Source: Trichuris trichiura (Eukaryota; Nematoda; Enoplea; Trichinellida; Trichuridae). Taken from it: DNA of 64,000 bases. The translations under genes and the position numbers were made by a program. The DNA lies in NCBI GenBank assembly GCA_037903355.1, contig JBAJFE010000011.1, positions 1,745,001 through 1,809,000 on the forward strand, in the 5' to 3' direction. The notes beneath the pieces were generated by a model. That model did no database searches. It had not been told where the DNA came from and saw only the letters and a list, made by a program, of their open reading frames with translations. How positions within the stretch are numbered: position 1 is the first letter of the stretch; each line of letters starts with the position of its first letter. This document shows positions 32,001 through 62,600 of this stretch, piece by piece.

Positions 32001-35000
32001 TGCTCTAAAAGTAATAGAAATGCTACCAGTTGACGAAACTGGAATGTTTATGCTGTATGCGTTGGGCAATTCTAAGTTTCTTCGATTAACTCGATGACGT
32101 CCATCAGCGAACTAGACGCAACGGTCGCCGTCACGAAAAATAGTTTTCTTCTTGGCGCAAATAAGGCGCCAACAATTCAGTCTGTTCATCCGCTTATTAA
32201 GAATGCGTTTGCAGAAATTATTGGCCGTAATCTAGTTTCCCTAATTGTAGTTGTTCTTTTGAAATTTTTCCTTTGTAATGCAGCGAGATTGAGCTTGCAG
32301 TGGGAAGGCGCAGGTTATTTCCAGTGTCTTATTCAATTGAAACAAATTTTAGGCGGAAGAAAGCAGTAGCGACAATGAAATTTAAGCGTTTAAACCATTG
32401 TTAACTCAAGTTTTCATTATTCGGCGGTTTAACCTTTTCCACTCCTGTTCTCGCAGTCAATTTCACCTTCGCATTCGGCCTGATAAATTTTATTTGCATA
32501 TCAGTTTATTTCTTAGTCCCTTTTTATTGTGAATATGATATCCTGCGTTCTTCTACCTTTATAAGGCGCTGTTCTGGTCTTATACTATCTTTGTTACAAG
32601 CTAGGCTTGCTTTGGAATGTTTTGGCGCATTGTAGATTAGACACCTACCGAGTTCGATGTCCGTCTAGCAGTAAAAAAATTGTTAAACTATCTACAAACC
32701 TAAAACCAGAAGGACTTATCGATTTAATTTTGACAGTAATAATGAGACCGACCGAATGCCGAAAGGCATTCAGTTTTGAACTTCTGCAATCGAGAGCAAG
32801 GATACCACGATATTATCATCATAATTCGTACCAAAGTTCGTACTAACATAGCCACTATTTTTGAGTGTAATATGCAAGCGTAGCAAAGGCGCGCCAGACG
32901 TGTTCTTACGGCCTTTGTCATTATCCGCGCATTTGCAGAGGTTTTCCTTTATTTTATTCTGCTTTTAGCCATTTCTTACCCGCTCAGTGGTATCCCTTCA
33001 GCTTCCATCGCAATTTATATTCTGTTGCGACAAGGCGAGCTGCTATGCTCATAACTACTCTTCTAGTTATTATTTTTCAAAATTGGCTTAAAACGGCGAA
33101 ATATCCAGTTAATCTATCATTAAGCTTGCATGGCTTTATAACAGACGATCGTAGATATTGTAGAAACAAAAATAGTCTTTAAAAAAGGAAGCGAAATCGC
33201 CTGCGGTACGTGTGCATTAGAAGTCACGCTGAGAGCATGCGGTCTTCTCAAAAGAAAAAAATGCCGTTTGGTTTGTTTTACCATCGTCCAATACTTTTTC
33301 TTTTTAAGTGGTTTCCACTTGTTCTTTAACGGGATTAGAATTCGTATAAAGAAAAAAAAGCATCATCCAGTACTGTACCTTGTTCATTGAGTGAATGAAA
33401 TTCGATGATTTGTCGCGGACAGAAGTGACTTAGCGCTTAGTAAATTGACCACTGAATGCATGCTACAATTATGCTTGCGAATAAACTTAACCCTTCGACT
33501 GCAGCGCGTTTACAAAGTAGGAAAAAGTCAAAGATGTCAGAAACTTTTTGCCTTTAGCCTATTGTCCATTTTGTTTACCCGGTCACCTCTTGCTATTTGG
33601 GGTTAAGCACTTGTGCTTATTTGCGTACATAAGTAGGGTTACAGTGCCGGCTCACGTTTTCCCTTTGCTTGTCGATTGTTGGCTCTTTCCAAAGGTCCAC
33701 CTAGACAACGGAATGTATTGGTAAACAGGATGAGATATGACCAGCGTTGCTGCTGCGCAAAGTTGGTCAGCGGACATCCGTGACGACTGGCGACCTGTCA
33801 CACATTTATACGACGAAATGATAGGGGCGGCACTTTTCTACTTAGCAGGTAGGCAGCGTAATAAAATCAGTTTGCTTGGAACTTTTTTCTTTCAATTTTC
33901 GCCGACCACTTTATCGGCTGCTTTGAAATTTCAGATGCGTCGGCCGGACCTGGATTCAGCAATTTAACGCTCGAAGAAGCATTGGATTCCATGCTTTCAT
34001 TGGTCGACGCGCCAAGACGTTCGGACAAACTGGAAAAAACGTTAGCGTCGTCGGATGCGCCAAAAATTCGACCTTTGACGCCCACTTCCTTCTATCGACC
34101 TGCTATTTTTGTCGACAATGAAAGACTTATGGAACGTTGCGCAAAAACTCCAAACCTTTGTCGCAAACTGCTACAGGTGGGCATGATTTCTAAGGTAAGC
34201 TAATTGCTTTTTTTGCTTTTTTTTAGAAGGAGACTGTATGGGTCCGTTGCAATAGCTGCGGTAGGATTGAGGAGATGGACAGCGCAAGGGGAAGGTACGT
34301 CAGCTGTCGTCATTGCTATACATACTATTGCGGCTATGGATGTCGCAGCGATGATTGGCAGGAGCATAAGCAGCTGTGCACGTATGCCCGAGTGAATACT
34401 GTCTGTAAAGAGGTGATTATCCGAGTGAAAAAAGATTTAGAAGTTCAAAGAAATATGTCTCTTGTTGCGCAACGTGGTTATGCTGACCGAGGTCGAGGAT
34501 CCGTGAATCTCCGCTTTTTACAACTCCAAGTGGCAAATCAGTATATCGCTCATGGTTGGCCAGCCATTGCTCACGACCGAAAGTGCCTTTCCTACTTGAC
34601 CATCTCTGATTTAATTGAATTGGGCAAAAGTGCCGATTTGATAGCCACCTGTCGCCAGTACAATCCGAAGGAAAAGTTCATCCTTAGTGTGAGCATTCTG
34701 GTAGAAATTGATCGAGTCCCACAAACGCCCAGTTCTCTTCACACCGCTGCCTTCCAATATGATCGCTCGTCCGCTATTGAATCTAAGCCATTTTCCCGAA
34801 TAGCCAATGGCCATCTTCAGACCCGGTCGCTGCCACCGTCACGACGTACGCGCCCGCCAGTTCTGCAACAGCAGCAGTCGGCATCCTCCGTGCTCAAGTC
34901 AGTGCTAAAATCGTTGGAGAACATTGCTCCTGACCAGCCGGAAATTGAATCGCCGCCTCGTCATTTTCGTGAGAGAAATGTTGATTTCAATCGTACAAAT

Positions 35001-35111
35001 CAAATGCGGCATACCATTGGCAGCGGTGGACAACAAACGAGCAGACGCCATTTTTGGCCTGCCAGTGTCCAACTGGCATTTGCTAACGACGTGGATGAAA
35101 CGGAAGTTTAA
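26098..35111 (+). CDS. ajm-1: Apical junction molecule (AJM-1) homologue
   Basis: AJM-1 is a coiled-coil protein of nematode epithelial apical junctions, working with DLG-1. Supported exons: 26,098-26,808; 29,508-30,865; 30,929-31,937; 33,771-33,848; 33,935-34,194; 34,227-35,111. Junctions are phase 1 or 0 and all are frame-compatible. The middle is a long disordered region rich in Ser, Pro and charged residues, with helical RRHKYKAKIDRAKKEFLESR, KLHLPDWYLQSKY and NFFDKYKDEIEELRKSRSEL. The C-terminus has a MYND-like zinc finger (C-x2-C ... SCRHCYTYYCGYGC ... DDWQEHKQLC) followed by the conserved VNTVCKEVIIRVKKDLE, GRGSVNLRFLQLQVANQY and YNPKEKFILSVSILVEID, diagnostic of AJM-1/AJM1. The intron 30,866-30,928 is 63 bases, a multiple of three, and has no stop codon, so it could be retained. 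The exact acceptor at 33,771 is the weakest. The 5' end lies upstream and is unresolved. Confidence 0.85.
26939..27238 (-). CDS. Hypothetical 99-residue basic protein, antisense within an ajm-1 intron
   Basis: Intact minus-strand ORF (MANRQITRADCCKELRKLKN to the stop at 26,939), lying wholly inside the 2.7-kb ajm-1 intron 26,809-29,507. It is very rich in Arg/Lys (for example MIKRRRKIRARHLRMFRR), has four cysteines, and ends in a predicted helix (IELAEQLKKTVESFLLQF). The composition looks like a nucleolar or RNA-binding protein, but I recognise no family. The frame stays open upstream of the ATG. It may be a nested gene or a chance ORF. Confidence 0.3.
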   Translation of the reverse strand: MANRQITRADCCKELRKLKNLMTNRRSLPAGRRTRHMAMIKRRRKIRARHLRMFRRVDKLICCLTKLRLKEGAPIGARAQIELAEQLKKTVESFLLQFP

Positions 35112-35560: not shown

Positions 35561-36911
35561 TTAATAGCTTGTCAGTAGAACTGGATGCCAAGAGACAATT
35601 GCTTGAAGTATTAATGCGACCAACGGTAGCGCGGCTGTGATACTGACCACTGCGGCTGAACTGCGTATCGCTGAAATAGATACATGTGATGTTACGTGGC
35701 TCTTAACGTCTGTGATGTTTTAAGTAACTGGTCGCTGTTTATAAGAAAAGCTTTGGAATTTTACCCTCTTAAGGTAAACATTCCTAGTAAGCATCTAAGA
35801 CGTGGGATAGTGGCTGAAATGTTTTACCTATTTCGCAGAAGTTTCCAGTAAAGCCAGGATCACATTTACACTTGAAGTCGCGCAACTTGTTTTCACATTT
35901 TCCATGATAACTGCAAGTCACCTGCTCGCAATCGTTCTCCGAATCTGTTTTGTAGAAAACTTCCACTGTTTGAGAAGCGGCGACGGTTTGCTGCTTTATA
36001 CAAACCTTCCTTGCATTCCGTTCCTGTGCTTCCCGGAAGACATGCGCACGAGGCTTCTCCTTCGTCATTCATAAAGCATATCCCATTGCTTGAGCAACTG
36101 TTTTTTTTACACTTGTTCTCCCCTGAATTTAAGCGTCAAAGCGTATAGGTTGTAGCGTTGAAGAATCAACTTATTCGCTGCTAAGTGTCGCGAGGATTCG
36201 CGCAGCTTGTAACTTACTTTCTTTACAGAATGGTCCTTCCCATCCAGCGTCGCAGCGGCATTTACGGCCGTCAGGATTACAGTGCTCTAATTTGCTACTT
36301 TTGCATAGCACCCGAACAGCGCCATCATGCGTCTTGCATGAATCTATACTTTCAGTATTGTCTTTGTTCAAGAAGCTGCACATAGGCAGGTTTTTGGAAT
36401 TAACATTTTTATAAGCACTTGGCAGTGCTTCTGGAGTCATTGCAGTTTCGTTAACATCGCCCGAAGTCATGTTCATTGTTATGATGGTAGTAAGGGTACT
36501 TTCTTCTTGTTTGACAGCTTTTTCTATAAGTCTCCAAGGGAGAATAGCGACGCCCTCTACTTTGTTTGTTTCGTTTTCTTTCTCTTCCATGTCCACTGGT
36601 CGCGGATGCAGCATTTTTCCATTGGGAAGATCGTCACACGTTGCAATTGCTTTATCTAAAATGTCAATTTCGTCTGTTGTGTAATAGTTAACGGCAAGCC
36701 ATGTTTTGCAAATGTTTGTATCGTTTACACCATCCCATCCCATTTCCAGTGGACATTTAACCTCAGCATCACTCTGCACCGATGACAAATTTAGTAGGAA
36801 AAGCAACAGCGTAAACAACAAGTATGAGGCCGTTCTTGTTGATTGAATAAAATGGCTACGAACTGTTGGAACAGATGGATTGTACTTGTTTATGCTTACA
36901 GGTCGGTTCAT
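35561..36911 (-). CDS. Surface/secreted EGF-domain protein with hydrophobic C-terminus (paralogue A)
   Basis: Four exons joined (36911-36218, 36122-36006, 35944-35828, 35670-35561), all in phase 1, encoding about 345 residues. It opens with a signal sequence (SYLLFTLLLFLLNLSSVQ after a 29-residue lead). An N-terminal region follows, with CPLEMGWDG and spaced cysteines that I cannot assign firmly; a degenerate C-type lectin-like fold is possible. Then come three EGF modules: the first ends CRCDAGWEGPFC, the second spans CKKNSC to CACLPGSTGTEC, and the third spans CEQVTCSYHGKCEN to CKCDPGFTGNFC. The last exon encodes a hydrophobic tail (SITAALPLVALILQAIVSW then HPVLLTSY), which suggests a GPI signal or a transmembrane anchor. 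It is divergent from a paralogue at 38,931. A minus-strand AATAAA at 35,249-35,254 could end the transcript. Confidence 0.78.
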
Positions 36912-38930
36912 GCAGACTTGATGAACATCATTGCTAGTTTATACTGCGCTTACGAAGGGCAAAAATAAAACACCCAATAAGTTGCTTTAAAATTAGTCGT
37001 TTACTTGTTGGTTTACAGTACGGTGATTCGACAACGAAACAATAAGAAGTCGGTATTTACAATTGCCGGAGTAGAATGTTTTAGGCTATGCTAATTTCAC
37101 TCCCTTAAGCTGATTTCTTGAAGTTCTTATGGCATGGTGAATCCATTGATTTTAATTAGTTCCAACTCTAAGAAAAAATTTCTGCTAACATTGTAGACAC
37201 TGGCAAAATAGGCATTGAAAAATCTGCGTATACACGAACCCTAGACATTCAGATCAAGTCAGCAGTGCTTCTGAATTTGAAAATTTGAGCGTCTGAAATG
37301 CAGGTTGCATTAGCGAATGGGATGAAGAAGGACGTAATGGAAAGAGAAGAAAGAAATTTTACGGGTGTGAAAATTTCTTATCTCTTACCGACTGTTGCTG
37401 GAAGTCGATAAAAATTAGAAATCTGCACAAATGTTACAAAATATTGCCTACCTTCTTTTCTTTTCGCCGTAAGCGCCAAACGCCGGTTCGTGTAGGAGTA
37501 AATTTTAATAGATAAAAAGGAAAATGATGACGGCTCATGGCATTTGTTTTTTGGGAAAATTAAGCTATAAATACCCCGTGGGGGTGACAGTATTCAAAAG
37601 GTGAAATGCAGGTACAGCAACTTAAAAATGACATGTTTGTAATTTTACGAAATAGTTCGCACTAAAACTGCTGAATAAACTATTGTGCTAAGGATTTTAT
37701 CTATTTATTTATTACGAAACCGCAAAAAGCGTTTTTATGTATTTACCAATAAGCAATTCCCCTCAGAACACTTAGAGCCCCACGTTCTCCTCTGTCAACG
37801 ATAACAAATATTAATTTATTTGGCTTGACGCAATAACAGCACTTCTTAGCACAAAATTGACAAGACAGGCGAAACTTAAAAGTACAATTTATTGTACATT
37901 TAAAGCTCTTACGTAGCTCTAAATAAAGAGAACAGAGCTAGAAAGCGTAGGAAGCAAACAGCAGTCTTCAGTTTTGTTGGGAATAAGTGCTTTTGGCCTC
38001 TATCTTCTTCACTCGATTGTCCTATGTTGCAAACTACTTATCAAACTTGAATGTAATTTCGAATTTTGCTTAGCGTCCAGCTGCCAGTCTACGCTGAGCT
38101 TGAATCGTAAAAGACCTCAGAGAAGCTGAACGCGTGCCATTTAAGTTACCATTCAAGTCAGCAGCGTAAAGTCGAGCTCCAATAACATTCAAACCTTGCA
38201 TTTGTATTCAAATTTTTCAACCGGTTAGAAAGATTTTCAGGTTATTGTACCACAAGAGAGAAGATGTGATGATTGATAAAGCACTATAATTCAGCAAGCG
38301 GTTTACTAAAAAGTATTAAACATGTCTTACATTGTAGCTACATTAATACTGTTGGCGGGTTAAAGCCTATCCCGGAAACTTTGTTTTTCTTATTCGAGGC
38401 CGCCAAAATGAACCATACTTTTCAACTTTCACAATTAAGCTTTTAGCCTGTGATTGTTTAGGAATTTGAGCTCCGTCAGTTTTAAAATTCAGTACTTTCA
38501 GACTCGAGATTTTGGTTTCCGCCCCGCTGATAGCTCAGGATTTCATGCTCCGAAATTTGAGCCTCTACATAAAAGCATGGACGGCATAGGTTAAAGCTGA
38601 CTTAGAACAAGCAAGCTAACCATAATACAAATTTCCCGCAAAGTTAGTTGCGGTTACCTATGAAATGTTTATGTTCAGGGATGGAGAATTTATGCAAAGT
38701 TTATCGTTTAGTGTTGAAGAAAATATAGTTCACGTAGTTTAATTGGCAAAGTCTGAATGAACTTTAAAGCGACTGCCAGACGAAAATTTTAAAATACGCT
38801 TTTCCTAAGCACTTCAGCATGTCAATTTTGTTCAAATGAATACGCAGTAGAATGGGAATAGTATTCTCTGCTTAGAGTTGAGCTATAGTCTCGTCTGCGG
38901 CTGCTGAACAGCAGGCCAACACATTTGAAA
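36912..38930. other. Shared 5' region between two divergent EGF genes
   Basis: About 2 kb between the two start codons. It is A+T-rich with no recognised coding sequence. It probably contains both promoters, but no specific site can be named. Confidence 0.45.
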
Positions 38931-40112
38931 ATGTGCAAACCATTTAGGAAAGTCGCTGTGCTTTGTCTGCTCTATTTTTGGTGGTCATCCCCTACAGAGG
39001 CTTTGTGCCCACACGAATTGAACTGGACAAATACGGCTGGCTTTGAATTTGACAAAGGTTGCATAAATGTTCGCTCTTTAAAGGCTGATAAAGATGTGCT
39101 TTTTGATGACCTTGTAAAAATATGCCAAGATAAATTTGGTCCAAGTGCCGTATTGGCTGACTTTGAGAATACAAGTAGAGTAGGTGATGTCATACTCGGA
39201 GGCAAAATTGTTCACATCCTGAAGAAGAATGCGGCTAACTTCACTGCGCTGTGGGTAAATTTTACGGATACAACTTTCAGAGAACGTCAGTTTGCAGTTG
39301 GTGACTGCAATACGGAAGGGAAAAAGCTGCCCCTTTGTATTCTAACTCACAAAGGATCCAAAAAATGCTTTCCCTGTTCATCTCCCATACCAAAAGAATA
39401 CATAAATGGCACGTCCTATGTTTGCTTCACTGAAAACATTACTAAATGTAGAGTAAGAGATGACAAATGTGATTGCGAAGATGGATACGAAGGAGAATTT
39501 TGCCTGAATGGTATTGTTCAGTTGACTAGTCCTTTTAAAGTATTAACAATTAGCATTATTTTGAAAGTCTTCCACCTACCGAAAGTACAAGCTACTTGTG
39601 TTTTATCCAAGCTTAAGTTGTTTAACTTTTTCCTTTCCTAGCCTTTAGTTTTTTTCAGATTATTGCCTTCTTTATTATCCATGCAATGTTTCATCTTTCG
39701 TTTTGTTCAGTCATAGGGAAGTGTACGAATGACGTGTGTAAAAACAAAGGATACTGCGTTCCAATGCCAAACAGCTATAAGTGCATCTGTCCCGGTGGAG
39801 TGACCGGTCAGAATTGTGAATTAGGTATAATGCTTTTAAATTTATATATGCTAAGTTTTGAACAGCTGTTTTTTAGATTTTCAAAATGAATGCACAGGGG
39901 TTGACTGCAGTGGAAGAGGCACTTGCAAAGATTTGGCCAATAACTTTGAATGTCAGTGCGAAAGCCCATACAATGGTTCAATGTGTGAGCTATTACTAGT
40001 GGGTAAGTAATGAAAATTATCCAATATAAGATATGACAAAGCAATAACCGATAAAATACTGCCTTCTGTTCCAGGTTATTTTCTTGTTTTTACATTGGTC
40101 CGAGTCATTTGA
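38931..40112 (+). CDS. Surface/secreted EGF-domain protein with hydrophobic C-terminus (paralogue B)
   Basis: Four phase-1 exons (38,931-39,510; 39,711-39,824; 39,877-40,002; 40,075-40,112), mirroring paralogue A in exon number and phase. The start ATG gives a classic signal peptide (KVAVLCLLYFWWSSPTEA). The N-terminal region has CPHELNW, a later C, ALWVNFTD and LPLCIL, spaced rather like a degenerate C-type lectin domain (tentative). Then come three EGF modules: CRVRDDKCDCEDGYEGEFC; CTNDVCKNKGYC to CICPGGVTGQNC; and CTGVDCSGRGTC to CQCESPYNGSMC. The final exon adds a short hydrophobic tail (ELLLVGYFLVFTLVRVI). Several N-glycosylation sequons are present. Sequence identity with paralogue A is low outside the cysteines. 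Function is unknown. Confidence 0.78.
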
Positions 40113-42200: not shown

Positions 42201-42755
42201 ATGTCCGCTTTGTCGGAAAACACCGATTACAAGCCTTCGGCGTTTGTTCAACTTCTTAGTCGACTAATAGGGCCAAACAGGTTTGATCAGCGCGGAAATG
42301 AACTTTTAGTACCAAGGACATTTCTACCCCTACCAGCAATTTCGCAGGAAGAGTATGCGTTGCAGACTCTAACTGAGAGTTGTGTATTCAAGTCCGTTTT
42401 GGCGTCCGTAATGGGATTTGGTATTGGAGCAATGTTTGGCGTGTTTACAGCCAGCCTCGACCCGGCTCACACTTTGGGCGATCCTGCCCAACTCACTGCT
42501 CGGCAAGTGTTTCGTGAAATGGGACAACGGTCGTGGTCATACGCCAAAAATTTCGGCGTATTAGGACTCATGTTTGCTGGAATCGAATGTACGGTGGAAA
42601 CGCACCGAGGCAAATCCGATATTTTAAATGGTACTATTTCCGGTCTGGTTACTGGTGGTTTGATCGGTTTGCGCGCTGGCGTCAAAGCGGCTGCACTTGG
42701 AGCTGCCGGTTTCGGCCTTTTCTCCACCATCGTTGACTACTACATGCGTTATTAA
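42201..42755 (+). CDS. timm22: TIM22, mitochondrial inner-membrane translocase subunit
   Basis: Channel-forming subunit of the TIM22 complex, which inserts carrier proteins into the inner mitochondrial membrane. A single exon encodes 184 residues, close to the 194 of human TIMM22. The conserved core is clear: ESCVFKSVLASVMGFGIGAM then FGVFTA, EMGQRSWSYAKNFGVLGLMF, the ECTVETHRGKSD segment, then NGTISGLVTGGLIGLRAGVK and FSTIVDYYMR. Four hydrophobic segments are present, and the paired cysteines (in ESCVF and in IECTVE) match those forming the family's intramolecular disulfide. The gene is followed after only 65 bases by a CISD gene on the same strand, suggesting an operon. Confidence 0.95.
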   Translation: MSALSENTDYKPSAFVQLLSRLIGPNRFDQRGNELLVPRTFLPLPAISQEEYALQTLTESCVFKSVLASVMGFGIGAMFGVFTASLDPAHTLGDPAQLTARQVFREMGQRSWSYAKNFGVLGLMFAGIECTVETHRGKSDILNGTISGLVTGGLIGLRAGVKAAALGAAGFGLFSTIVDYYMRY

Positions 42756-48308: not shown

Positions 48309-51283
48309 ATGCGGACCAAGACCGGTTGGACTTGTGTTTTTTTTCTGTCTTCCTTATGCTTGCTGCTTCCCACCGAAGGAGGTATACCGCGCTGCGTGAA
48401 CGTAACTCTTTCACTGGTATGGAGCTATTTCAGCCACTGGTTACGTAATTACCGATTGTCCTATCCGCCCGGAGAACTGGAAGGTTCAGTTTGGTAAACA
48501 TAGGTGTCGCAAATCATGCCTTCTGGATGCTGACTGTGGTCCCAAGCATCAGTGCATTTGCGACCAGGAATGCGGCCTTAGCTGCATTCGAAAAGGTAAA
48601 CTTCATAAACATTTCATGGAATGAGCGCGACGATTTTCATACCTTCTTCGCAGGTTCCCACTGTTCGCTGGTGATTACCGGATTAGCCAACGGTCACGTA
48701 CGTTATCCGAAAGAAGCGATCGTTGGATCCAGTATAAAGTACGAATGTTCCGCTGGATATCGCCTTGTTGGGCCAGCGCGTCGCGTATGTCAGGGCAATC
48801 GCCTTTGGTCAGGTTGGGAGCCTTCGTGCACCACTTCCGGTAAGCGTTGTTCAATTGAAAATTGTGACGAGCAAAAAGCTGTTGGCATCTCCACTGCTTC
48901 GCCTTTTTGGACAACTTCTACACTGAACCGATGAAATGCCTTTGGAAGTTGTCTAACTTGAGCGCTGCAATTCTTGCATGCATTGATTAGTGAAATCCGT
49001 TTAGCCACTTAAAGTGTTAATAATCGAACGGTGACACTGATTCGTTCGGTCATATTGTCAAGAGGCTTTCCTTGCCCTGAGTTCTTTGCAAGAGGGTCGT
49101 CATTTCTTTTTTCATCACTCGCAAATTGACTTAGCCTTCTGTACGGTCTTTGACCAGTCGAAAGTTTATGCTTCTTTGGAAGGCTGTTTCTTAGCTTCTA
49201 ATCCATGATTTGGCATTATATGCTTCCCATTTTGCTTATCTTAAATCTGTATTGTACATCCGGTCAAATCATCACTGATAAGTGTTAGTTAAAAAATCAT
49301 ACTAATTTGTTGCTAAAATTTATTTTTGCTTGTAGACAAGTGCACTAAGCCTCCCGAATTACCTTACGCGAGACACAACGCATCCGAAGGGCTTCCTGTT
49401 CACGATGTGAACACTGTTCTGCGTTACGAGTGCACAAAAGGCTATGACGCTGACGATGGAGGCTTTCAACTCGCTAAATGCCTAATGCACAAGGGAAGTG
49501 CCGAATGGTTTGGTCCCGATATTAAATGTATCGGTATGTGTTTGCTTGTTGTTTTTTTCCAACTTTTGAAATGGCTTTCGTCGCTAAAGCTCGAAGTTGC
49601 GGCCACCCTGGTGAGGTGCTCAATGCTATACGCTTGGGAGAGCAGTTCACCTATCCCAATACGGTAACGTACCGTTGTATCGATGGATTTTATCTGCGCG
49701 GCTTGTCGACGCTCACGTGTGCGGACGATGGACGCTGGGTTGGAGAGAAGCCAACATGCAAACCCATTGAATGTCCTCGGCCCAAAGCCCCGTTGTACGG
49801 ACAAGTGCAAGGTACGTCAGTGGACTTTCAATCCAAAGTAGTCTACTCATGCGAAGAGGGATACCGTATGGTTGGTCAAAAGCAGCGCATTTGCCAAAGC
49901 GATCGTTCCTGGAGCGGTATGGAACCTTACTGCGAAGGTGCGTTGCAATCGCAGCGTTCATTGTCGACAAAGTTTGTTTAGAAGTCAGCTGTCCCACGCT
50001 TGGAGTCCTATGGAATGGATTCATTGATGGGGACGAAACATCGTTTGGAGCGATGGTCATTTTCCGTTGCTTAGATGGAATGACTCATTTAGGCGCTCCT
50101 TACAGTCGCTGTCAAAAGGATGGAAGTTGGTCGCACCCGTTGCCCAGTTGTATGGGTAAGCGAAGTGAAATCGGGAACAGCATCGTTCCTATCTTTATAT
50201 GTTGAAGCACCTTGTCAAATGCCCAAACTTTCCAATGGTCTGATAATGAGGGATGACCTTAGCGAACCGGTACCTCATGGAGAACACGTGATCATTCGGT
50301 GTGCTTCATTTCACGAGCTTGAATATTCGGAAAATCCGGTATGCAATAATGGCTCATGGTCGCATTTGCCACGTTGCGTGCCAAGTAGACACTATTTCCT
50401 TCAACTTTTTCTTTGGAAGTTTTCGTCTCCTTTTCCAGTAAGGTGCAGGAAATGGCCGGAGCCGGTTCGCAACGGTTACGTGCTTTTCGCCAAGACTCAT
50501 CATGGGGCAACGGCAAGATTTGTATGTCATCCGGGATATCAGTTGAAGGGACCTCCGGTAATTCGTTGCTCCTTTGGCGAATGGAAAGGCATCCGTCCTG
50601 TCTGTACAGAAAGTAACGCTGCCTAAGCGCGATGGTTTTGATTTTTGTGTGTTCTTGTTTACGTAGAACATTGTCCGCACCCGAAGACAGTGATTGGAAA
50701 TATTGAACACGGTTTGATCAAACTGGAGGGTTCGCTGGGCTCCTACGAATATAAAGACTACATTCGAGCAGTTGGTGAACATCGGACAATCGCATTTGAA
50801 TGTCATAGAGGTTATGTATTGGAAGGTGCATTATTTATTGCAACTATAATCTAGATTAGATGCTTTTTTTTGCTAGGTCCGGCCAGGGCTACGTGCGTTA
50901 ATGGAACCTGGCAGCCGAATGTTCGCCCGAGATGCGTTCTTCAGACGCATCCATCCTTAAGTAATCGTATTGATTGGGATGTTATCGTTCGAGATAAGCG
51001 TCACCTGTACTGGAAACCCATTCAAGTCATACGCCATTCGCAAGAGATTCAACAAGCCTTCGAAAAGGGTTCCATTCTCAGGGAAAATTCGTTCAAGCGC
51101 AAGCGCGTTGATAATGACGTACATTCATTGAGTAACCGATTCGCCATTTTGACAGACCCAGGCAAAGTGGAACTTGAAAACAAGCTTTGGGCTTCTTCTT
51201 CTTCCGGTACGTTTTTGAGGCAAACGCTGGTCGTTCCGTTTGTTGATGTTATTTTATTTTTACGCCGCTTCGTAGTTTCTTAA
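48309..51283 (+). CDS. lev-9: LEV-9-like secreted WAP + 8 CCP (sushi) protein
   Basis: C. elegans LEV-9 is a muscle-secreted scaffold with one WAP and eight CCP modules that clusters levamisole-sensitive acetylcholine receptors. Ten exons, all joined in phase 1: 48,309-48,381; 48,434-48,595; 48,654-48,839; 49,336-49,533; 49,590-49,937; 49,982-50,155; 50,208-50,384; 50,439-50,612; 50,667-50,825; 50,877 onward. Exon 1 is a signal peptide (VFFLSSLCLLLPTEGG). Exon 2 is an eight-cysteine WAP domain (CRKSCLLDADCGPKHQC, CDQECGLSC). Exons 3-10 hold eight CCP modules, each with four Cys and a Trp (for example YECSAGYRLVG, CQGNRLWSGWEPSC). A basic tail of about 100 residues follows. The last exon either reads to a stop at 51,283 (about 685 residues; LEV-9 is about 620) or is spliced at a GTACGT donor (after 51,206) to the downstream CCP/Ig array. 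Confidence 0.88.
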
Positions 51284-53171
51284 CTACATTCCGCACTGAC
51301 AACCTGCGAGCATTTATTGCTAATGGCACTTTTCAAGCACTTTGCTTAGCGGGCAGATCGATTCTTACACTTTCGATTCCTTAATCCTTTTAAATTTAGC
51401 TTTTCTATTCTCATTAGAAGTGACAAGCGGGAAAACGTTTCTTGAAAGCTTGTTTTCTTCACTGTTCGTGGATTGGAGTTGATATTGACACGGCTAACAT
51501 CAACTGTCCATTATTGACTCTTCTCAATCTGGCTCGTGCTGGAATTGTCAAGTTCCAATAAGGCCACTATAGATGGTGTTGACGTCTCAATTTAATTCAA
51601 GTCAGTTAAACTGATGGCAGCAGGTTGCATAAACGTAAATGTCTGATTTCCTTGGGTATCACACTTTAGCATTGCTAACGAGTTTGAAAACGTGTGAAAA
51701 GCGAACACGAATTGTCATTACCGATCATTGATCACAGCAGACAACATTCAGTTTCCACTTCTTCCATTCCGTTTCTTTAATTCCACATCACTTTGATGTA
51801 TTTAAAGACGGCCCATAATGCGCGCATAAGTAGAGTGCAACTGACCATCAGAACTATTATTGTAGTTGGAAACACTGTGTTCAATCTTGTTTAGCTTTTC
51901 AGCCGCCTCACTCTGATACGTAGCTTTCCTGGGATAGTAATGCATACAGATGAGTAGACTTTGTTTTCTGCGTCTTAAATCGCGAAAACCTTAGTAATTT
52001 CCGATTATCTTGAAATGCAGACGAATCAATGATGTGAACTCACTTAGAGTGTATTGTTTTATTTCATTATGTTTTGCTGTTACACTTAAATCGAAGCCCT
52101 AAGATACATAGCTTTCCTGCTTTCAGTGCCTTCGGATTGGTGGAATAGTTGTAAAAACTGATGAACAGGTACTATTAATATTTACAGTATGTCCTGTTGC
52201 ATTTATGAACAGCTTTTCCGATGTCTAACGTGTGGCTGAGTATTCTTTTGCGCTGCAAATAAGCTGCGATTGACAGTGTGTGCTAATGATGCATTCGTCT
52301 ACGCGTCAGTATACAATTATTGGCACGCAAAGTCAACCACTAGACAGCGTAATGCTCTCATCGCGTAACTTAAATGGATGATCACGTTTCGCCATTCCCT
52401 AAATGGCTTGCATTAATGATCGATCCGTCTTGAACGCTTTGTAAAAGAAATGCCCCCATAGTCTCATCAGACTGAGAAGAACGCAACTAATTCTGTGTTC
52501 ATTTTGTTAACTGAGCATTTGTATTAAAAAAATTTGTTTGGACAGAGTGAACACTTTGTTATTGATGTAATGGATGGCATTATTTGAACGTTTTTTAATA
52601 ATTACGGCCTTTGGTTGGAAATGTCAGAATTTTGATTGGATGAGTAATTTTTCTCATTCTTCCGTGTTCCATTCGGACACAATATTCTCAATAACGGTTT
52701 TATGTTGAGAGCAGCTAATTTGAAAACTTTGTTCCAACAACAATAGGTCGTCTGAAATTGAATTTTCTTTTTGATACGGTGATTGCTCCTTTTGCTGATT
52801 TCAAGAGTGCTGTCGGTTTACCGTTGCGTACTAACATGTTAGAAAAAAGCTTGGATCATCTGACAATTATAAAGGCGCTTTTTTTGTCATGACGCGGAGC
52901 ACGCTGAAAATTTTGCGCATCATAGGTTCATAAAAGATCACTCTTTGTGATATGATGCTTTCTAATGATGCATAGCTGCACTTGAAGGATCACTGATTTT
53001 CAGAAAAGTCATTGTTTCAGTCATGAATATTTCTCGAACTCTGTTCTTTGTTGTGGTTTTCTTAGCATTAATATGATAAAAGGCTTCATGACGTTCCGTT
53101 TAGTTTTTATTGCAAGTTGATGTTTTGTTGATTTCATTATAATTAATAAATTATATGCGGTAATATTTCAG
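51284..53171 (+). other. Intron or intergenic region between the two CCP arrays
   Basis: About 1.9 kb without recognised exons. A start-to-stop ORF with a signal-like sequence (MNISRTLFFVVVFLALI, ATG near 53,026) has no donor that joins it in frame to the next exon. I found no other plausible ATG plus phase-1 donor. There is also no AATAAA close after 51,283. Confidence 0.4.
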
Positions 53172-56100
53172 CATGTACATTGCCAACGAGAGCTAATTCT
53201 TTCTTCGTTATTGCCGATCAAATTGTAACATACGGAGAAGAGGTGCCGGATGGGACCACAGTAAAAATTCACTGTTCACCTGGCCATGTGCTAGAAGGAT
53301 TGCCGGAAAATTTGTGCTTTACGGGCACGTGGAAATTTTCATTTGGCAAATGCTTTCCAAGTATTAAGTTGAATAGCACTAAAGAATGTTGCCCTTTGAA
53401 ATTGATCGACGGTTCTTTAGTACCGTCGCCTGTGGAGGCGAATTGTCCACCTCCTGCGGATTCGGATCGGGTAGCTGTGGTCTGGTTGCCGCCTTTGGAG
53501 CAGGTTGATAACGGCAGCACCTATGAAAGCACTGCAATCCGTCGGATTGCCGTTGGCAATGGAAATTTTTCAAATCGGCGGTATCCAAATGCAAGTATTG
53601 TCAAGTATGCATGCCAGAGGCCGGAGACTAATCGTAGTGCAAGACAGAGACCGCAAGCAATGTCTGTTCAGTGCGTCGACGGGCGCTGGATTGCCTTACT
53701 GAGGCCATGTTGTAAGCTGTTTCACATGTCGTTTTATTACGTTTTTTAAAGCGCCGTTCTGTTTCAAGTTTCCATGGAGTCTCGTCAACTGGAGCCAACT
53801 ATTCGTCGTTTCTCCATGGAAAGTAGTGTCTCCATACCCTCTCTGCTCAGCGTCTCATCACTGCCTCCAATAGTCCGTCGCTCGCGGCGTTGCCTGAAAC
53901 CGGATATTAGAGCACCTTGGGAAGTGGTAGCTTACTTCAGCCACTCCAAAGCAAACAAAGGGGTAGTGAAGCCTCAGGTGAAGACTACATACCGTCAAGG
54001 AGCCACTGTTTATGTAACTCGACGGTGCATACGGCTTTCTTGATTTCTCCTTCCTTAGGTGCGTTGTTCCACAAATAATTTGACAAGTTGGACGAAATGC
54101 GTTGGCGGACGTTGGTCAGAGTTGGACGAAAACCTATGCAAAAGTGAGCAGCAGGCGTTTCTCCATAGGGAGTCTCCCGAAAGATTTTTTTAGATGCTTC
54201 GAGTGACCAACCTCTGATCAGAGAAGGAGATTGTATTTTCAATCCGCTCGACTTTGTCCACATGACCGTTTCCAGTGTTCATTCTGGCGAACAGTTTGTC
54301 TTTACCCAGCATCTACCTGAAGGAACTGAATTAACTCTGCGGTGCGAGCATGTAGGTCTTTTCCAGTTGGTTGGCCCTGGTCAAGTGCTTTGCCGCAATG
54401 GCAGTTGGTTCAGCACTTCGCCAAAGCCTTATTGCAGACCCATCGGTACCACAGTTCCGTCAGGCAAGTGAACAATGCGATCTGATTATTTTGTCGGCAA
54501 AGTAGCCATTAGGACGTCCTCCCGCAATCGTATTTCGGACCGTTCAGGGCGACGCATCGCCTAGTTCATCAGGGGATTTGATAGTCCGGAGGTCGTCCAC
54601 CTTGCAACTGGACTGCCTGTACCCAATGGACAAGGGTCAACCTGCTTGGGTAAACCGCCCCAAACGAAAAGTAATTTTCTAACTTTGTCTCTGCGTTACA
54701 GCATTACACCAGCTCGTATCGGCAATATCCGCAGCATTGGGTTAATGTCTCTGTCGACATGGATCGTTTTCGTGATAGCCACGCAAGCATGTTAACTGGT
54801 AATCCGATCACGCTGAGCGCCTACAGGCTGACTGTCTACATGGCCAGACCGGAAGACTCTGGAACGTTTTATTGTGTTGATTCAGTTGGTCGACGTCATG
54901 CTATACGCGTTATCATCAAAGGTGAGTAGATTCTATTATTATGCGTTATCTTTTCGTCGCAACGAACCTTTGCTAAACTACTCCTCGAGATTCCCCAGAC
55001 AGTATGCATCTGTAAGATAAGAAATCTGTACGTAGCTTTTGATACGCATTGTTAAACGTTAGAGTTTGGTAAATGAAAATAGGTTTTTTTGTGTTAAGAA
55101 CGCTATTGAACCCCGAAATGGGAAATATGCATCAGCTGCCGTACGTGCGCGTTATTCAATCTGACAGCGCACTAAAAGTGCGAGTAGAAGAAGCTTTGGA
55201 AATCATGAGCCAACTAATTATTAATAGCTGTCAGCGGAAGGCGGCATGGTGACTTAGTTTTTGCGAAAGGTTTCAACTGGCTGTCCTGCACCTTTTTGCT
55301 CACATCCATTCTTCAACGTGACGGATAGCGGATAAGCGTTGACTATGAGTGCAAGCTGGTACTGTCGTCGCATCCATCATTGGTGGACGCAGAAAAGAAG
55401 CAAAGATTATCATCCTAAGGCGGATTTCACGCGCATTCGATAACGATGCGCGCATAGGAGTTTTGCAATCAGTAGCAACTTTCTTGACTGGTTTGCTCAA
55501 AGCCAGTTTTGATATTCACTCGGGAGAAGTTTTGCGTGACTAACTGGGCCAGCAAAGGCAAGAAGAAACGGGCTGCCGATATTGGGCTGACAATGCGTGG
55601 GAGTAGCAATGACGACATGCCAAATTGACGTGACAATCGTCAAAATGGCAAACGTTTAGGCAGATAAGCTGTCAAAACTGGTGACAACTCTGCGAGTCGC
55701 GTTCAATCGTATAGGCGTAGCTTCTTTCGGGTGCAATGAGCTCAAGTTTAAGTCACTTCTGGACGCGTCATTCCCCTGCAGTACGCCGCTGTCACAACCG
55801 TTGAAACGGCCTATTAACCGCATTGGCCAAATGGGTCTACGCTACGGAAGGAAGTGTCGAACTGCTTTGCCGAATTTATTGCGAAGAACTTGCGTATTGA
55901 TTGATCCTTAAGATGGCATTGCACTTGGGCCGTTTAGTGTTGATCTTGCTGCTCGGAGTGCGGGAATGTCATGACAGGAAGTGAAACATTGTCGCCTTTG
56001 CCTAGTGCTGACTGCTTTAGTAGTTCAATAGCCTCAGGAAAGCGATAAGCGAATACTAAGGAAATTTTGAATAGCATTTTTGAATAACTCGCTGAAATGC

Positions 56101-59100
56101 CGCCATTGCATTTGGTGGTTTCTAACTGAAGGGTTCCGCTTTTTTTGCGTTTCGCAGGAACAGCAAACGTTCCATTCATTTTTTTTAGTAGGCAACGTAC
56201 TCCAACTTTCAGTACGCGTCTTCTCATCTTTTTTTGTCGATGAACTATCTTAAGAGCCTTAGTTCCCTGTGAAACTTTGTTGAGGATTTCTGTGTTCCTC
56301 ATTTCTTCTCATTGTTGGCAACAAGCTCAGAAGGTTCATACATGTTCGTCTAAGCTGTAGGTTTTGCTAACCAGTACGAGTTAACGTAAACGGTCTATTA
56401 TTTCCTTGCATTCCTTTGGGCAAAACGAAGATGACCATGACTTGTAAATAATCTTTTCTTTACTTTTAATGTTCGTCCCTAAGACAGGAATTCTATACGT
56501 CATGCTCAGGTTCGTATGCTTGAAGTTAGCCTGTAAAAGTTTTATTGTCTCATTCTGTGCGCGAAGGGAAGATGTTATTTGTCAGTTGTTACGCGCTTGT
56601 GCTACCGATGTTAGAAGTATGAAAAACTGCTTTCGATCACATCGTAAAGCGTCCACTAGCGATAGATAGATAAGAGTGAAATCCAATGGTTTTGCTGTGC
56701 TCAACTTCAGTTAATGTAAGCAATTTTTTTCCCACGATTATCTGTCCTTCAAAGTCATCAGAAAAGTAATGACGTCTTCATTTAACGTAGTTCTTTTCGT
56801 AGCTCTTTCAGAGTATTGAGATCTTGAACAAGTCGTGAACTGTTGCGTCCTTTAGCAGAAACTTAAATGACAAATGTATGCGATTAAGGATTTTTTACTA
56901 ATTGTCGAGCAGTTTAGCAAATATTATCCTTTTATAATAAAAACATTCAGCTGAATTTGCCCGCGGTTAGCGTGCCTAACGTCCTCTACGCGTAGCGTTG
57001 AGCCATCTTCACGTGAGAGAATAGAAGAAAAAACTTGGAAAACCGTAGGCGAAAATGTACTGTTGACAGTTCTGTGGGAGCAATTGCATTAAGATCGCAG
57101 CCATACATCACTTTGTAGCGTATCGTTGACTTCCTGCCAGCACGTCCAAGTCACGTTAGGGTCGCACAAATGCAAGGTTCTTGCTGTCGTTCTGACATTC
57201 CATTCTTCTTCATTACTCATCCATAGCGATCGTTGCATTTGGAGTACCGCTTTTCTGTTTTGCGCACACTCTATATCATTATCCTTAAAAAATCAAACCA
57301 AATAGTGATTTGCCAGTTTATTTGTCTTGGTTGGCATTTGCTCAGCAATGCAAAAAGTGACTTCGCGCTTTTCAGTTAGGATTGAGCAGATGTAGCGAAG
57401 GAGCTACTAGTTTTTATTCCAATCGCTGTTTAACTTTTAATAGCACAGTATGACTTTTGTGTGCGCAGGTTCGCCTAGCTAAATACCCTCAAACTTAATT
57501 AGTCTTTTCGTTGGGATTTCCAGCATATCAATCTTTCGCAAATATACCCCCTTTGGCATGAGTGAGTTCAAGAGAATCTCTAGAAATTGCCCTGACTAGA
57601 CACTTTCAAGTGTGCGCATAAATAGTCAGCGTTCGCGATCGTCTGTTGTGGTACACTCTTAACTGCTTGATAGCTGACGCTGCTGGTCGCTTATTCTAGT
57701 TGCAATAGTCACGCTAGATAAGTACTTCATTGTCTGATGACATCCGGGGGTACATGTGAGCACAGTGTACCCAATTTACTTGAACAGTCTTCCCGGCACG
57801 CAACAGCTGTCCATCGCCTGCTGCGTCAATGAGCGTCACCGACGACGATGGTTCCATCATTCATAAGCGTAGTAAAAGAGACTCCTAACGCAGTGTCACG
57901 CGGACAAGTAGGCATCGCTTTGCCAACAAAGAATTATCGAGAAATGTACCAAATTGTACGAGTTGACAGTGTGAGCATCAAACTGATTAAAATTAAATTC
58001 GTCGGCAATAGTTGAGATGGCAAAAAATTGTCTGCCCAACATAAGCGAAAAACAAGGTTTACTATAGAGTAAACGTCGCAGACTGGTGAGAGTGCACCTG
58101 CGACAACGGACAAAACGTTCACCATTTTGTTGCAATTCGTAGTGTCTCATTTCTGATAGAAATGAAAGCTCGTGATTCAAGCGATTGCGCATGTTTCAGA
58201 CATCACTTGCCCGCTGTTGAACCAGGGCCAAGCGATGATTGCCAAAGCGACCAAAGGCAACTACTTCGGCAGCGTTGTTGACTTGAAATGCCGACCTGGT
58301 TTTACACTGATAGGCGCTAGTCGCTTGCGCTGCCTTGAATCTGGCCAGTGGTCACAAGTACCATTGCCGCAATGCCAAGGTATAGATAGACGCTAGTAGA
58401 CATTGAGACAGAATTAGATTCTATTCAACCGACAAAATGAAAGGCAATTTTAAATCACCTTGCAGCTGTACACTGTTCTCCAATAAGAAGTTCACATTCG
58501 GCTCTAATGGTCAACGTTTCTTCGTACGAATATAATGGCATAGCCATTTTCCAATGCAAAACCGGCTTTACAGTCGATGGACCCCGTTATATTCAATGCA
58601 CATCTCATGGTCAATGGAGCGAAGATCCGCCGAACTGTGCAGGTGTTTATACGCTCTGTTGACCAACATTGCCAACATGTTGCTATTACAGTTGTTCGAT
58701 GTACAAACCCCGATGTACCAACCGGAGCGGTGCTGGTACCCCGAAAGGTCCACTACTACTATCGAGACATTGTTCTGTTCAGTTGCTCAAGTGGATATTT
58801 GCTGACAGGCAAAAACTACGCTATCTGCAACAAACATGGAATTTGGACAAATTCTGCTCCCGAATGTACGCCTCGACTAGTCGTAGGAGCTCTTTAACGA
58901 CGCTGCTATACTTGTCAGGTCTTCGCTTTTGTTGGTTTCCGGGACAGCCGGTGTTCGGTGACACTACCTCACCACCGAAAGCTTACTATTTAGTAGGCGA
59001 TACTATCGTCTACTATTGCATTTCGAATAAGTACAAGATGGAAGGAAACGCTGTCACTCGATGCACCGGTACAGGCAAGTGGTCATCAAGCGTACCTAGC

Positions 59101-59124
59101 TGCAAGCCGCAAAGGCCAACATAG
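53172..59124 (+). CDS. Hikaru genki-like CCP/Ig protein (or C-terminal part of the LEV-9-like gene)
   Basis: Ten exons: 53,172-53,711; 53,769-54,013; 54,059-54,143; 54,194-54,445; 54,513-54,649; 54,702-54,921; 58,200-58,379; 58,466-58,642; 58,692-58,865; 58,919-59,124. All are GT-AG and frame-compatible. Four divergent CCP modules come first (for example CSPGHVLEGLPENLC and RCSTNNLTSWTKCVGGRW). Next is an Ig domain split across two exons (LQLDCLYPMDKGQPAW ... LTVYMARPEDSGTFYC). Four clearer CCPs follow (KCRPGFTLIGASRLRC, FQCKTGFTVDGPRYIQC, FSCSSGYLLTGKNYAIC, YYCISNKYKMEGNAVTRC), ending SCKPQRPT. Ig followed by CCPs is the architecture of Drosophila Hikaru genki, secreted into cholinergic synaptic clefts. 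The first exon begins in phase 1 inside a protein, with no signal-peptide exon found, so this may continue the LEV-9-like gene. Confidence 0.8.
54922..58199. other. Large intron of the CCP/Ig gene
   Basis: A 3.3-kb intron between the Ig and the following CCP exons. It includes an antisense open frame (55,934-56,302; 122 codons, basic) that has no recognised homology. No other feature is visible. Confidence 0.5.
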
Positions 59125-59327: not shown

Positions 59328-59333
59328 AATAAA
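59328..59333 (+). terminator. Poly(A) signal, CCP/Ig gene
   Basis: AATAAA lies about 200 bases after the stop at 59,124, in the gap before the convergent glypican gene. Confidence 0.55.
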
Positions 59334-59690: not shown

Positions 59691-62600
59691 TCATCCTTGT
59701 ATGTACAAATGGCGTACGGCCATGAGCAAGAGCAAGGTCGACAGAAACACCGAATAGGCATAGGCAGCCAATCGTTGAGAAGATGAAGGCGGAGGGGTTG
59801 CTTCGAAAACGTCGTAGTCCCTTGGTCGACTGAACGGCCTTAGAATGAAAGGAGGAGTAGTGTGCATGCCAATTTCGAAGTCAGGCACTGGCCGACCGTC
59901 CGAATCAACCCAAGGTGGTGGTCGATACGTCGCTAGCGTTAATTGAACGCCGGACATGTCTGCGGTCATGAACAAATCGTCAACATCCATTGGATCCCTG
60001 GGACTATGAGTCACCAAGGATTCGGATGGATAGCCCATTCCACTTCCCGAACCTTGATCAACCCCTTTGTGGCCCACTTGTTTGATTAGATCTTCGTCAT
60101 CCGTTTGCACATGATCGAAAGGGGCTGCAGGTTCGTGACCACCGCTGCCAAACAGGTCATTGGACCCGTAACCGGACTGTTCAATGGCCGGTTCGTAAAT
60201 TGGCGAAGCGGCTTGGACGCCGAGTTTGGCTGACGGCTTCCATGCGGAAGAGGCAACCGGCCGACCTCGTTCCTTCGGATCGAAGGACATCACCTTCTTT
60301 AACTCGTTGACGGTTCGCCGAATACGGGCCACCATTTCTCGAATCGTTGGCTCAATTTCGGCATCCTTTAGCAACGTTTCGGCGTCCCATTGGTCCGGCG
60401 ATACCTCAACGGGTTCTTCGGATTGCTGCTGCAAACTGGTCCCATTCCAGCAATACTGATCCGATCTATTGGAACCGGCGGCAGCGTGAAATTCGACGCA
60501 TAATTTTTTTGGCAAATGCAACCAGAAGCCTTTGGTCGGAATTGCCTTCTCTTTCATGTCCTTTGCCAGCAAGTCCATGCTCGTACCTAGTACGCTGCTT
60601 GGTCTGGCCGAGATGGGACCAAAACGCAGATCCTTTAGCTGATCGACCATTTTGCTGCGACTTTGACGTTTTGTTCTCGTTATCTTTGGTCGACCGCAGC
60701 CAGCAAAGACCTTTAAGGGTTAAACTTAAGTCACACGTTGAAAAAGTATGAGTCATCGTCGTCGTGGTCAATTACCTTATCTGAGATCTCTTTTCCTCTA
60801 TCCTGGAAGATCATTATTGCTTCGGAAATTTGAATATCAATAGGATTTATCACAGATTCAATATTGTAAGGTCCTTCGAGGCGGTCGAGCAATTGCAGCA
60901 AGCTTTCTAAATGTGAACGCTTAGGCGACTTTTTAAAAAGAGCAAACCGAATTACCGAGATACTCGTTCCAATGGCGATCGAAGACAACGTAAGAAACAA
61001 GGCAACGAGACGTGATGGCCAGGCAAAAGCTGTTGCACGGTTTCTGGCCAGTCAAACCTTGACAACTTGGGCAGTAGAGCATTTGCGTCAGCTGCGATAC
61101 GCATTCGGTGCTTGGCTTCATCTGCGAAAGAAAAAACATGAAGCTTCAATTTTCCGAATGGAAAATGATCCGCCTCGTCGACGTTTGGTCGAATCGATGC
61201 GCGCATCCTCCTGGGTGGCACCGCTGCCGTTACTTTGGCAGGAAATCAATCTCCTAATCGTCTTGGCCGTTCAAAAATACCAAACATACTGCCGGCCGGC
61301 GGCGTATATCCGGTATCGTTGCAAGCAAAAATAATTACCTCCCAACCGTGCCCCGCTTGCGCCTCTCCGTAAACCGATATTCGATAGAAAGGGACAGTTA
61401 AGGGTAAATGACGTGCTGCCTACCTTGAGCATATCGGATATGACGTCACTGCCAACCGTGAGAGCGTGAATGAACGTTCTTGCAGCCGAAAATGCCTTCA
61501 AAACTTGCAACTTCATCTTCTCCGGAACTTGACCAAACGGTTGCAACTGATGCATGTGACGACTCATGCATTGCCAGTAATCTTCGTCCAATTGATACGG
61601 TTGATTTAGCATGCGAAACATACGTCTGTACAGATTCTCGTAGAATCTGTCCATGACGAAATCCAAATCGCCGCTGGCCAAAACGCTGCCGTCCGCTTTT
61701 CGTTTGTACATGTAGTATGAGGTAAGATTGTCGAACAGCGAAACGAACAAGTCGGAATTCTGTTCGTACAAAATACCGTACGTTTTCATGAACATTGTGT
61801 GCAAGTCACGCTGCGACTTTGCCAAAAGCTCGCGAAAGAACCCTATCAAAAGGAAGCACGTGTCAACAGCGCTTGCACAAGTTGTTGAGGACAAACAACG
61901 ACGTTTCAGTCTACAAACAGTTCGGCTAACGGCAGACCAACGGTCCGTGACCTCGCGCGCTCAAATAGTACCATGCGGAAGTGTTCCCCTTCCGCTAACA
62001 ATGGCCAAGGCTGAGCGCCACTTAATTCTAGCTTACAGGCAAACATTGCGGATAGCACACAAATGTACGGGATGTGCCGCCTCGGATGCTTGACACTGCC
62101 TCCCTATTTAGCATTAAATGGACAGCTGTATTATCAGCACACGGCAGCCGGCCAGTGGGTCTTATCCATGCACTTTGGCTCCCCTGTTGAGCTGAACGGC
62201 CCATGACCGCTAATGGATATCAACGGGGGGTCCACGTGAGCATAATTAAGACGGCTCGGTAAAGGGCGGAAACAAAAACTCATTGGCATGAAGCGCGTTG
62301 ACAAATATAGTAAAGGTCATTGACCGTTATTGTTCTATTAGAGAATAATGGTTTTACGGTCCATTCAACATCGCTGACTTAGGATACCGACAATGTGAAT
62401 GATCCCTGGAGCGCCAACTTTCGGTCGCTCTACCCCCTACGATGCTAAACACATCTGTCGACGGGTGCCCTCTTAGAAGAATGAATGAATAGCAGTCTAA
62501 CGACATTGCAATTAATGTTCAGCGTACAGAATGAGAGACGTTGGCTCTCTAGTTACAACGTCACATTGAAACGGAACTTTGAGGAGTTGTCCAGAGAGAC

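Follow-up and report, generated by a model that had tools for sequence, protein, structure and literature searches.

We examine here a gene at positions 48309-59124, on the forward strand, of a 64,000-nucleotide stretch of the Trichuris trichiura genome (assembly GCA_037903355.1, contig JBAJFE010000011.1, positions 1,745,001 to 1,809,000; hereafter the window). It is very probably a single full-length gene of the LEV-9/Hasp type, whose secreted precursor would be cut by a convertase after the eighth of its CCP (Sushi) domains to give two pieces at cholinergic synapses. The comparison connects three cholinergic scaffolds that have been studied separately: the portion of PMC9083331 available to us describes LEV-9 as a WAP domain with eight CCPs, Hasp as a WAP domain with up to 17 CCPs, and Hig as five CCPs with an Ig domain. 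The initial annotation of this DNA had suggested that two known scaffolds might be fused, or lie side by side, at this locus. The same layout recurs in other nematodes and in arthropods, and the window gene reads as an orthologue of known proteins, ordinary in kind and no new fusion.

The spliced model comprises 21 exons and gives a single open frame of 1378 residues from the ATG at 48309 to the stop codon at 59122-59124, with an AATAAA at 59328 (Table 1); 18 of its 20 introns are in phase 1. The encoded order is a predicted signal peptide, WAP, eight CCPs, a basic linker, four CCPs, Ig and four CCPs, so that the N-terminal WAP and eight CCPs of LEV-9 are present, as is the Hasp-like combination, within one protein, of WAP with a long CCP series, here 16. 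The Sushi scan, PF00095 and a tally of cysteines (eight in WAP, exactly four in each of the 16 CCPs, two in Ig, none in the linker after CCP8) bear out the earlier claim of a WAP with exactly eight CCPs followed by CCPx4-Ig-CCPx4. The WAP piece, scanned separately, scored 21.5 bits against a cut-off of 20.8, and exon 1 encodes, by hydropathy only, the most hydrophobic 11-mer of the entire protein (2.70). The donor after 51206, the phase-1 acceptor at 53172 and the single poly(A) signal had all been placed correctly, as had the ATG and the stop codon; however, the intron at 53361-53420, within what had been taken as exon 11, had been overlooked. It is spliced out in the Trichuris suis protein P0003, which led us to replace a 20-exon model of 1398 residues; the Sushi scan, the second-half search and the whole-protein homology search were run with that earlier model. 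A donor at 54670 was likewise discarded in favor of 54649, as it would leave an improbable intron of 31 bp and T. suis has PAWHYTSS at that place.

The Ig domain falls short of the Pfam cut-off in the window protein and also in Auanema and one insect homologue, and a structure model was used for that reason. The predicted structure of an Angiostrongylus homologue, rather than the window sequence itself, supports an Ig fold. All 50 listed Foldseek matches of this model are, by name, complement-type or other CCP proteins, and the VIA-align matches probe chiefly residues 469-713 and the Ig, model residues 1-366 being barely tested; the search of solved structures gave solely complement or other CCP proteins among the best 60 of 86 matches listed.

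Long proteins collinear with the window protein were readily found. The whole-protein search returned 109 rows, headed by T. suis (1395 residues), Trichinella zimbabwensis (1449 residues) and two rows of Trichinella pseudospiralis (1405 residues), the Trichinella rows carrying the name Hikaru genki; a search of other Trichuris and Trichinella models, as the initial annotation had proposed, thus does recover collinear long proteins. Auanema (1332 residues) ranked seventh, several arthropod proteins came lower, and the remaining rows included many vertebrate or unnamed CCP proteins of other layout, as judged by name and domains. A further search took as query 990 residues of the Auanema protein, starting within CCP5, and scored only the 7992 candidates that shared most words; it gave 39 rows. 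Of these, 23 are nematode proteins no shorter than 1250 residues that cover 93% or more of the query, a count that includes Auanema itself, the source of the query, and several isoforms from a single species. These derive from Auanema, Oesophagostomum, Diploscapter, Necator, a row named 'Ha...', Nippostrongylus (three isoforms), Caenorhabditis (two species), Dictyocaulus, Mesorhabditis (two), Halicephalobus, Brugia, Setaria, Steinernema (two), Bursaphelenchus (two), Pristionchus and Ditylenchus (two rows). Two long homologues are themselves named LEV-9 (Oesophagostomum dentatum P0112, 1346 residues; Brugia P0126, 1340 residues); homology to proteins of that name is therefore collinear over the whole chain, including the second CCP set, the Ig and the last four CCPs. 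Identity to the window protein in a 12-sequence alignment was 93% for T. suis, 57 and 55% for Trichinella, 37% for Auanema and 30-32% for seven arthropod WAP/CCP rows. A search with the second half alone retrieved just two proteins, one an amphipod fragment and the other from a mollusc, probably because its length filter excluded the closest homologues.

The homologues differ in the stretch between linker and Ig. By cysteine count, Trichuris and Trichinella have eight CCPs, four CCPs, Ig and four CCPs, whereas between linker and Ig most of the 14 other nematode rows (11) show 24 cysteines, equal to six CCPs, and the remaining three show 22; in the six arthropod rows that are complete there, the number is 20 (five CCPs), and their first arrays hold two or three extra cysteines. 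Totals of 17 and 18 CCPs rest on cysteines and alignment, since Pfam scores just 16 Sushi stretches in insect P0016 and 14 in Auanema. Judged from these sequences, the order WAP, eight CCPs, linker, CCPs, Ig and four CCPs is the common long form among the nematode rows found and the arthropod WAP/CCP proteins. As such, the textbook LEV-9 of WAP and eight CCPs looks exceptional, the other nematode and arthropod proteins found being mostly about twice as long, with a Hig-like second half that follows a conserved basic site.

The two arrays most likely belong to one gene, joined over the 1965-bp phase-1 intron, and not to a neighboring pair. The T. suis model links identical residues where this long intron lies, and the collinear long homologues uphold the earlier suggestion of one large gene with LEV-9-like and Hig-like modules at a shared locus. 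The last cysteine of CCP8 and the next cysteine are separated by just 22-23 residues in Brugia, Steinernema, Toxocara and Bursaphelenchus, with no hydrophobic stretch between them, which leaves hardly any room for the start of a second gene. Hig would be expected to be a secreted protein in its own right, with a start of its own; here the second array instead continues from the first in phase 1. No poly(A) hexamer occurs within 1.2 kb downstream of the first array, in agreement with the initial annotation, and none of 26 candidates scored within the 1965-bp intron gave a Sushi match that would betray a hidden ninth-CCP exon.

The linker after CCP8 carries the basic processing motif expected of LEV-9, at which cleavage may be postulated. 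A motif RX(K/R)R starts 9-22 residues past the last cysteine of CCP8 in 33 of 36 hand-chosen homologues (28 of 28 nematodes, five of eight arthropods), where shuffled linkers would be expected to give 2.6, the 9-22 window having been fixed after the positions had been seen. The sample was confined to rows with a findable end of CCP8; Mesorhabditis belari P0123, which offered no anchor, was left out, as were 12 nematode rows (P0117, P0120, P0124, P0129, P0132 and P0138-P0144; isoforms, fragments and some others) and most arthropod and vertebrate rows of the whole-protein search. The motif reads RDKR in the window, RKKR in C. elegans and RRRR in Brugia and three insects. The second basic cluster of the linker, KRKR, recurs in T. 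suis but not in two Trichinella rows. A further basic cluster, RRSRR, ends at 53890 in a second linker (53711-53890) preceding CCP11, where an extra cut would be possible.

The portions of PMC9083331 and PMC4220116 available to us report that C-terminal cleavage of LEV-9 is required for receptor clustering and not for secretion, and the former that Hasp and Hig are likewise processed. For the window gene, we infer a single mRNA, its expression, cleavage, the fates of both pieces and a synaptic role along the following lines. The gene would yield one secreted precursor of 1378 residues, which a kexin/furin-type convertase would cut in the basic linker after CCP8, at RDKR and possibly at KRKR too. 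The N-terminal product, from WAP to CCP8, would be the equivalent of the C. elegans LEV-9 that clusters acetylcholine receptors, and the C-terminal product, CCP4-Ig-CCP4 with a Hig-like make-up, would stay in the matrix of the cholinergic cleft.

A number of points weigh against this scheme. Besides the hand-picked sample and the window set after the fact, many rows of the motif count come from related species, so that 33 of 36 are not independent events, and three arthropod rows (P0013, P0017 and P0062) have the motif only farther along the linker. C. elegans functions with the first half alone, and it is only by supposition that the C half may persist as a separate stable protein. The joining of the arrays into one mRNA is read from genomic sequence and not from transcripts, and most or all of the long homologues are gene predictions, some of which could be merged models. 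Last, the earlier statement that the second array has no signal-peptide exon of its own stands insofar as no strong one was found, but a scan of the long intron, under loose criteria and without a shuffled control, gave two weak candidates (ATG, hydrophobic stretch and phase-1 donor) at 51796 and 52574.

The short C. elegans protein bears directly on what else the locus might produce. C. elegans LEV-9 (P0145, 626 residues) shares WAP, eight CCPs and the basic motif after CCP8 with the window protein, but its record terminates within a ninth CCP where the window protein continues into its second half. It can be aligned collinearly to the long P0118 protein of C. remanei through residue 620; its last six residues are unmatched, and its end lies inside the ninth CCP of C. 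remanei. The Panagrellus LEV-9 record P0146 (630 residues) ends at nearly the same place, and both stop just ahead of the position of that CCP's second cysteine, as they would with an intron retained there. On this alignment, the short LEV-9 bears a stub from the longer protein. These two records, which stop soon after CCP8, also lend some credit to one gene with two products, namely a short LEV-9-only form, ending at the stop at 51283 through use of an alternative 3' end, beside the long form. We regard this as unlikely, though compatible with the single-gene precursor: no poly(A) signal lies near 51283, the read-through tail is intron-like, no transcript data speak for such a form, and the C. 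elegans and Panagrellus records stop elsewhere, inside a ninth CCP that Trichuris lacks.

Considerably less probable is a split into two genes, the first LEV-9-only and the second, downstream, Hig-like, perhaps in an operon resolved by spliced-leader trans-splicing; spliced-leader operons exist in clade I nematodes. Such an arrangement would accommodate the 1965-bp gap between the arrays, the two weak signal-exon candidates, and the shorter records named Hikaru genki in Angiostrongylus (P0129, C half only) and Toxocara (P0130, CCP6 onward). However, these two records begin mid-domain or mid-array and resemble partial models, and the same gene contains a still longer intron of 3278 bp. The missing poly(A) hexamer, the long collinear homologues of nematodes and arthropods, and the four nematodes with linkers of 22-23 residues likewise count against a second gene. 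A fusion of independent LEV-9 and Hig genes specific to Trichuris and Trichinella, to which the short LEV-9 of C. elegans and the separate fly Hig and Hasp proteins (PMC9083331, portion available) might point, is already contradicted by the identical layout in many further nematode genera and in arthropods, and can scarcely be credited.

Returning to the single LEV-9/Hasp-type precursor, its likeness to Hasp is drawn through insect homologues, among them dipteran P0021, and the published description rather than the Drosophila Hasp sequence. Insect proteins P0016, P0018 and P0021 share with the window protein WAP, eight CCPs, a basic linker, CCPs, Ig and four CCPs; they differ in linkers of 192-343 residues and two to three extra cysteines in the first array. 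Their approximately 17 CCPs, by alignment and cysteine count, agree with the 'up to seventeen' published for Hasp, against 16 in the window. The window protein has an Ig, which the available portion of PMC9083331 does not mention for Hasp, and the titles and abstract openings surveyed make no mention of an Ig in Hasp or of a long LEV-9 at all, although we do not claim their absence from print. Hig shares with the second half an Ig followed by CCPs, but it is described in the same portion of PMC9083331 as a separate protein of five CCPs and one Ig, with neither WAP nor first array. Given that the layout is common to nematodes and arthropods, the second half is read as the C-terminal portion of LEV-9/Hasp, with true Hig at most a relative of it.

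A tree of the Ig-CCP4 halves, as the initial annotation had suggested for the Ig module, places 17 nematode rows in one group (100/99) adjoining eight arthropod WAP-type rows (99/99). P0013, P0017 and P0019, whose organism names are incomplete, were placed with the arthropods because they group there. The tree is unrooted, and neither the order of the Hig/Hasp split (Hig from Hasp, or Hig first) nor a closer kinship of Ig-CCP4 with Hig than with Hasp/LEV-9 can be read from it; the one Hig-like row, amphipod P0001, has a long branch (1.51). P0001 aligns to the window protein across Ig and CCP4 at 32% identity; that it is Hig is a guess based on the presence of an Ig and the lack of a first array.

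These sequence comparisons support a conserved precursor that combines a LEV-9 half with a Hig-like half, and from which the short C. elegans LEV-9 appears to be derived. It is tempting, although we hold it at somewhat less than even odds, to postulate further that LEV-9/Hasp is an ancient precursor of two products, a LEV-9 piece that clusters receptors and a Hig-like piece of the cleft, with a convertase site between them that nematodes and arthropods have both retained, the short C. elegans LEV-9 being a derived or alternative form that preserves this site and a remnant of the lost ninth CCP, and Hig a stand-alone copy of the second product. If true, this would explain why LEV-9 requires its C-terminal cleavage, and the reason for that requirement becomes directly testable in laboratory worms and flies.

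Elsewhere in the genome, exon-wise queries, which have limited reach for distant copies, were made for further members of this system. C. elegans LEV-9 matched seven stretches of the 48309-59124 locus (35-49% identity) and one CCP on contig C7, with no second LEV-9 beyond the window locus; searches with the Hig-like query and with Ig-CCP4 of the window gene gave only further CCPs on C5 and C7, and no other Hig-like Ig was matched. Exons of subtilisin-type proteases lie on C22, C1 and C7, an assignment at family level that does not establish convertase identity. A candidate LEV-10 orthologue was noted at locus L024 (G000:C33:530500-536500), with four CUB rows above cut-off (five CUBs by eye), an LDLa domain at 31.4 bits against 24.1 and, by eye, a hydrophobic membrane segment; a layout of CUB, LDLa and membrane segment is described for LEV-10 in the available portion of PMC9083331. 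CUB clusters on C6 (astacin with CUB/EGF, Tolloid-like by eye) and C7 were dismissed by eye as LEV-10.

Table 1. Features of the LEV-9/Hasp-type gene, in window coordinates.
Feature	Position	Strand	Basis or remark
Exon 1: ATG and predicted signal peptide (MRTKTGWTCVFFLSSLCLLLPTEG)	48309..48381	+	Hydropathy; start similar in T. suis P0003
Exon 2: WAP domain, 8 Cys	48434..48595	+	PF00095
CCP1-CCP8, exons 3-10 (part), 4 Cys each	48654..50935	+	Eight Sushi stretches, Cys coordinates
Exons 3-6	48654-48839, 49336-49533, 49590-49937, 49982-50155	+	
Exons 7-10	50208-50384, 50439-50612, 50667-50825, 50877-51206	+	
Basic linker without cysteine, remainder of exon 10	50936..51206	+	
RDKR, convertase-type RX(K/R)R motif, residues 589-592	50990..51001	+	Conserved in homologues
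KRKR, second basic cluster, residues 624-627	51095..51106	+	
Phase-1 intron, 1965 bp, between the two CCP arrays	51207..53171	+	Identical junction in T. suis protein
In-frame stop on read-through of exon-10 donor	51281..51283	+	Possible short form, unsupported
CCP9-CCP12, exons 11-15	53172..54445	+	
Exons 11-15	53172-53360, 53421-53711, 53769-54013, 54059-54143, 54194-54445	+	
Ig domain, exons 16-17	54513..54921 (54513-54649, 54702-54921)	+	Fold from homologue only
CCP13-CCP16 and stop codon, exons 18-21	58200..59124	+	
Exons 18-21	58200-58379, 58466-58642, 58692-58865, 58919-59124	+	
AATAAA poly(A) signal, about 200 bases 3' of stop	59328..59333	+	

Several other genes were noted in the window. 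A glypican gene at 59691-61960 on the reverse strand (PF01153, E 6.6e-38) is convergent with the LEV-9-type gene, and its C-terminal tail is, by eye, hydrophobic, as for a glycosylphosphatidylinositol anchor. On the forward strand lie a SOX-type HMG-box gene at 2967-4355 (HMG_box 1.3e-27, SOXp), a mitochondrial carrier protein at 16751-17542, a Tim17/Tim22-family protein at 42201-42755, and open frames at 29492-31954 and 34227-35111 that resemble, by eye, an apical junction molecule of the AJM-1 type, the latter with a MYND finger right at the Pfam cut-off. Two secreted-looking proteins, at 36171-36938 on the reverse strand and 38889-39641 on the forward strand, have similar EGF-like cysteine tails and are perhaps an inverted pair.

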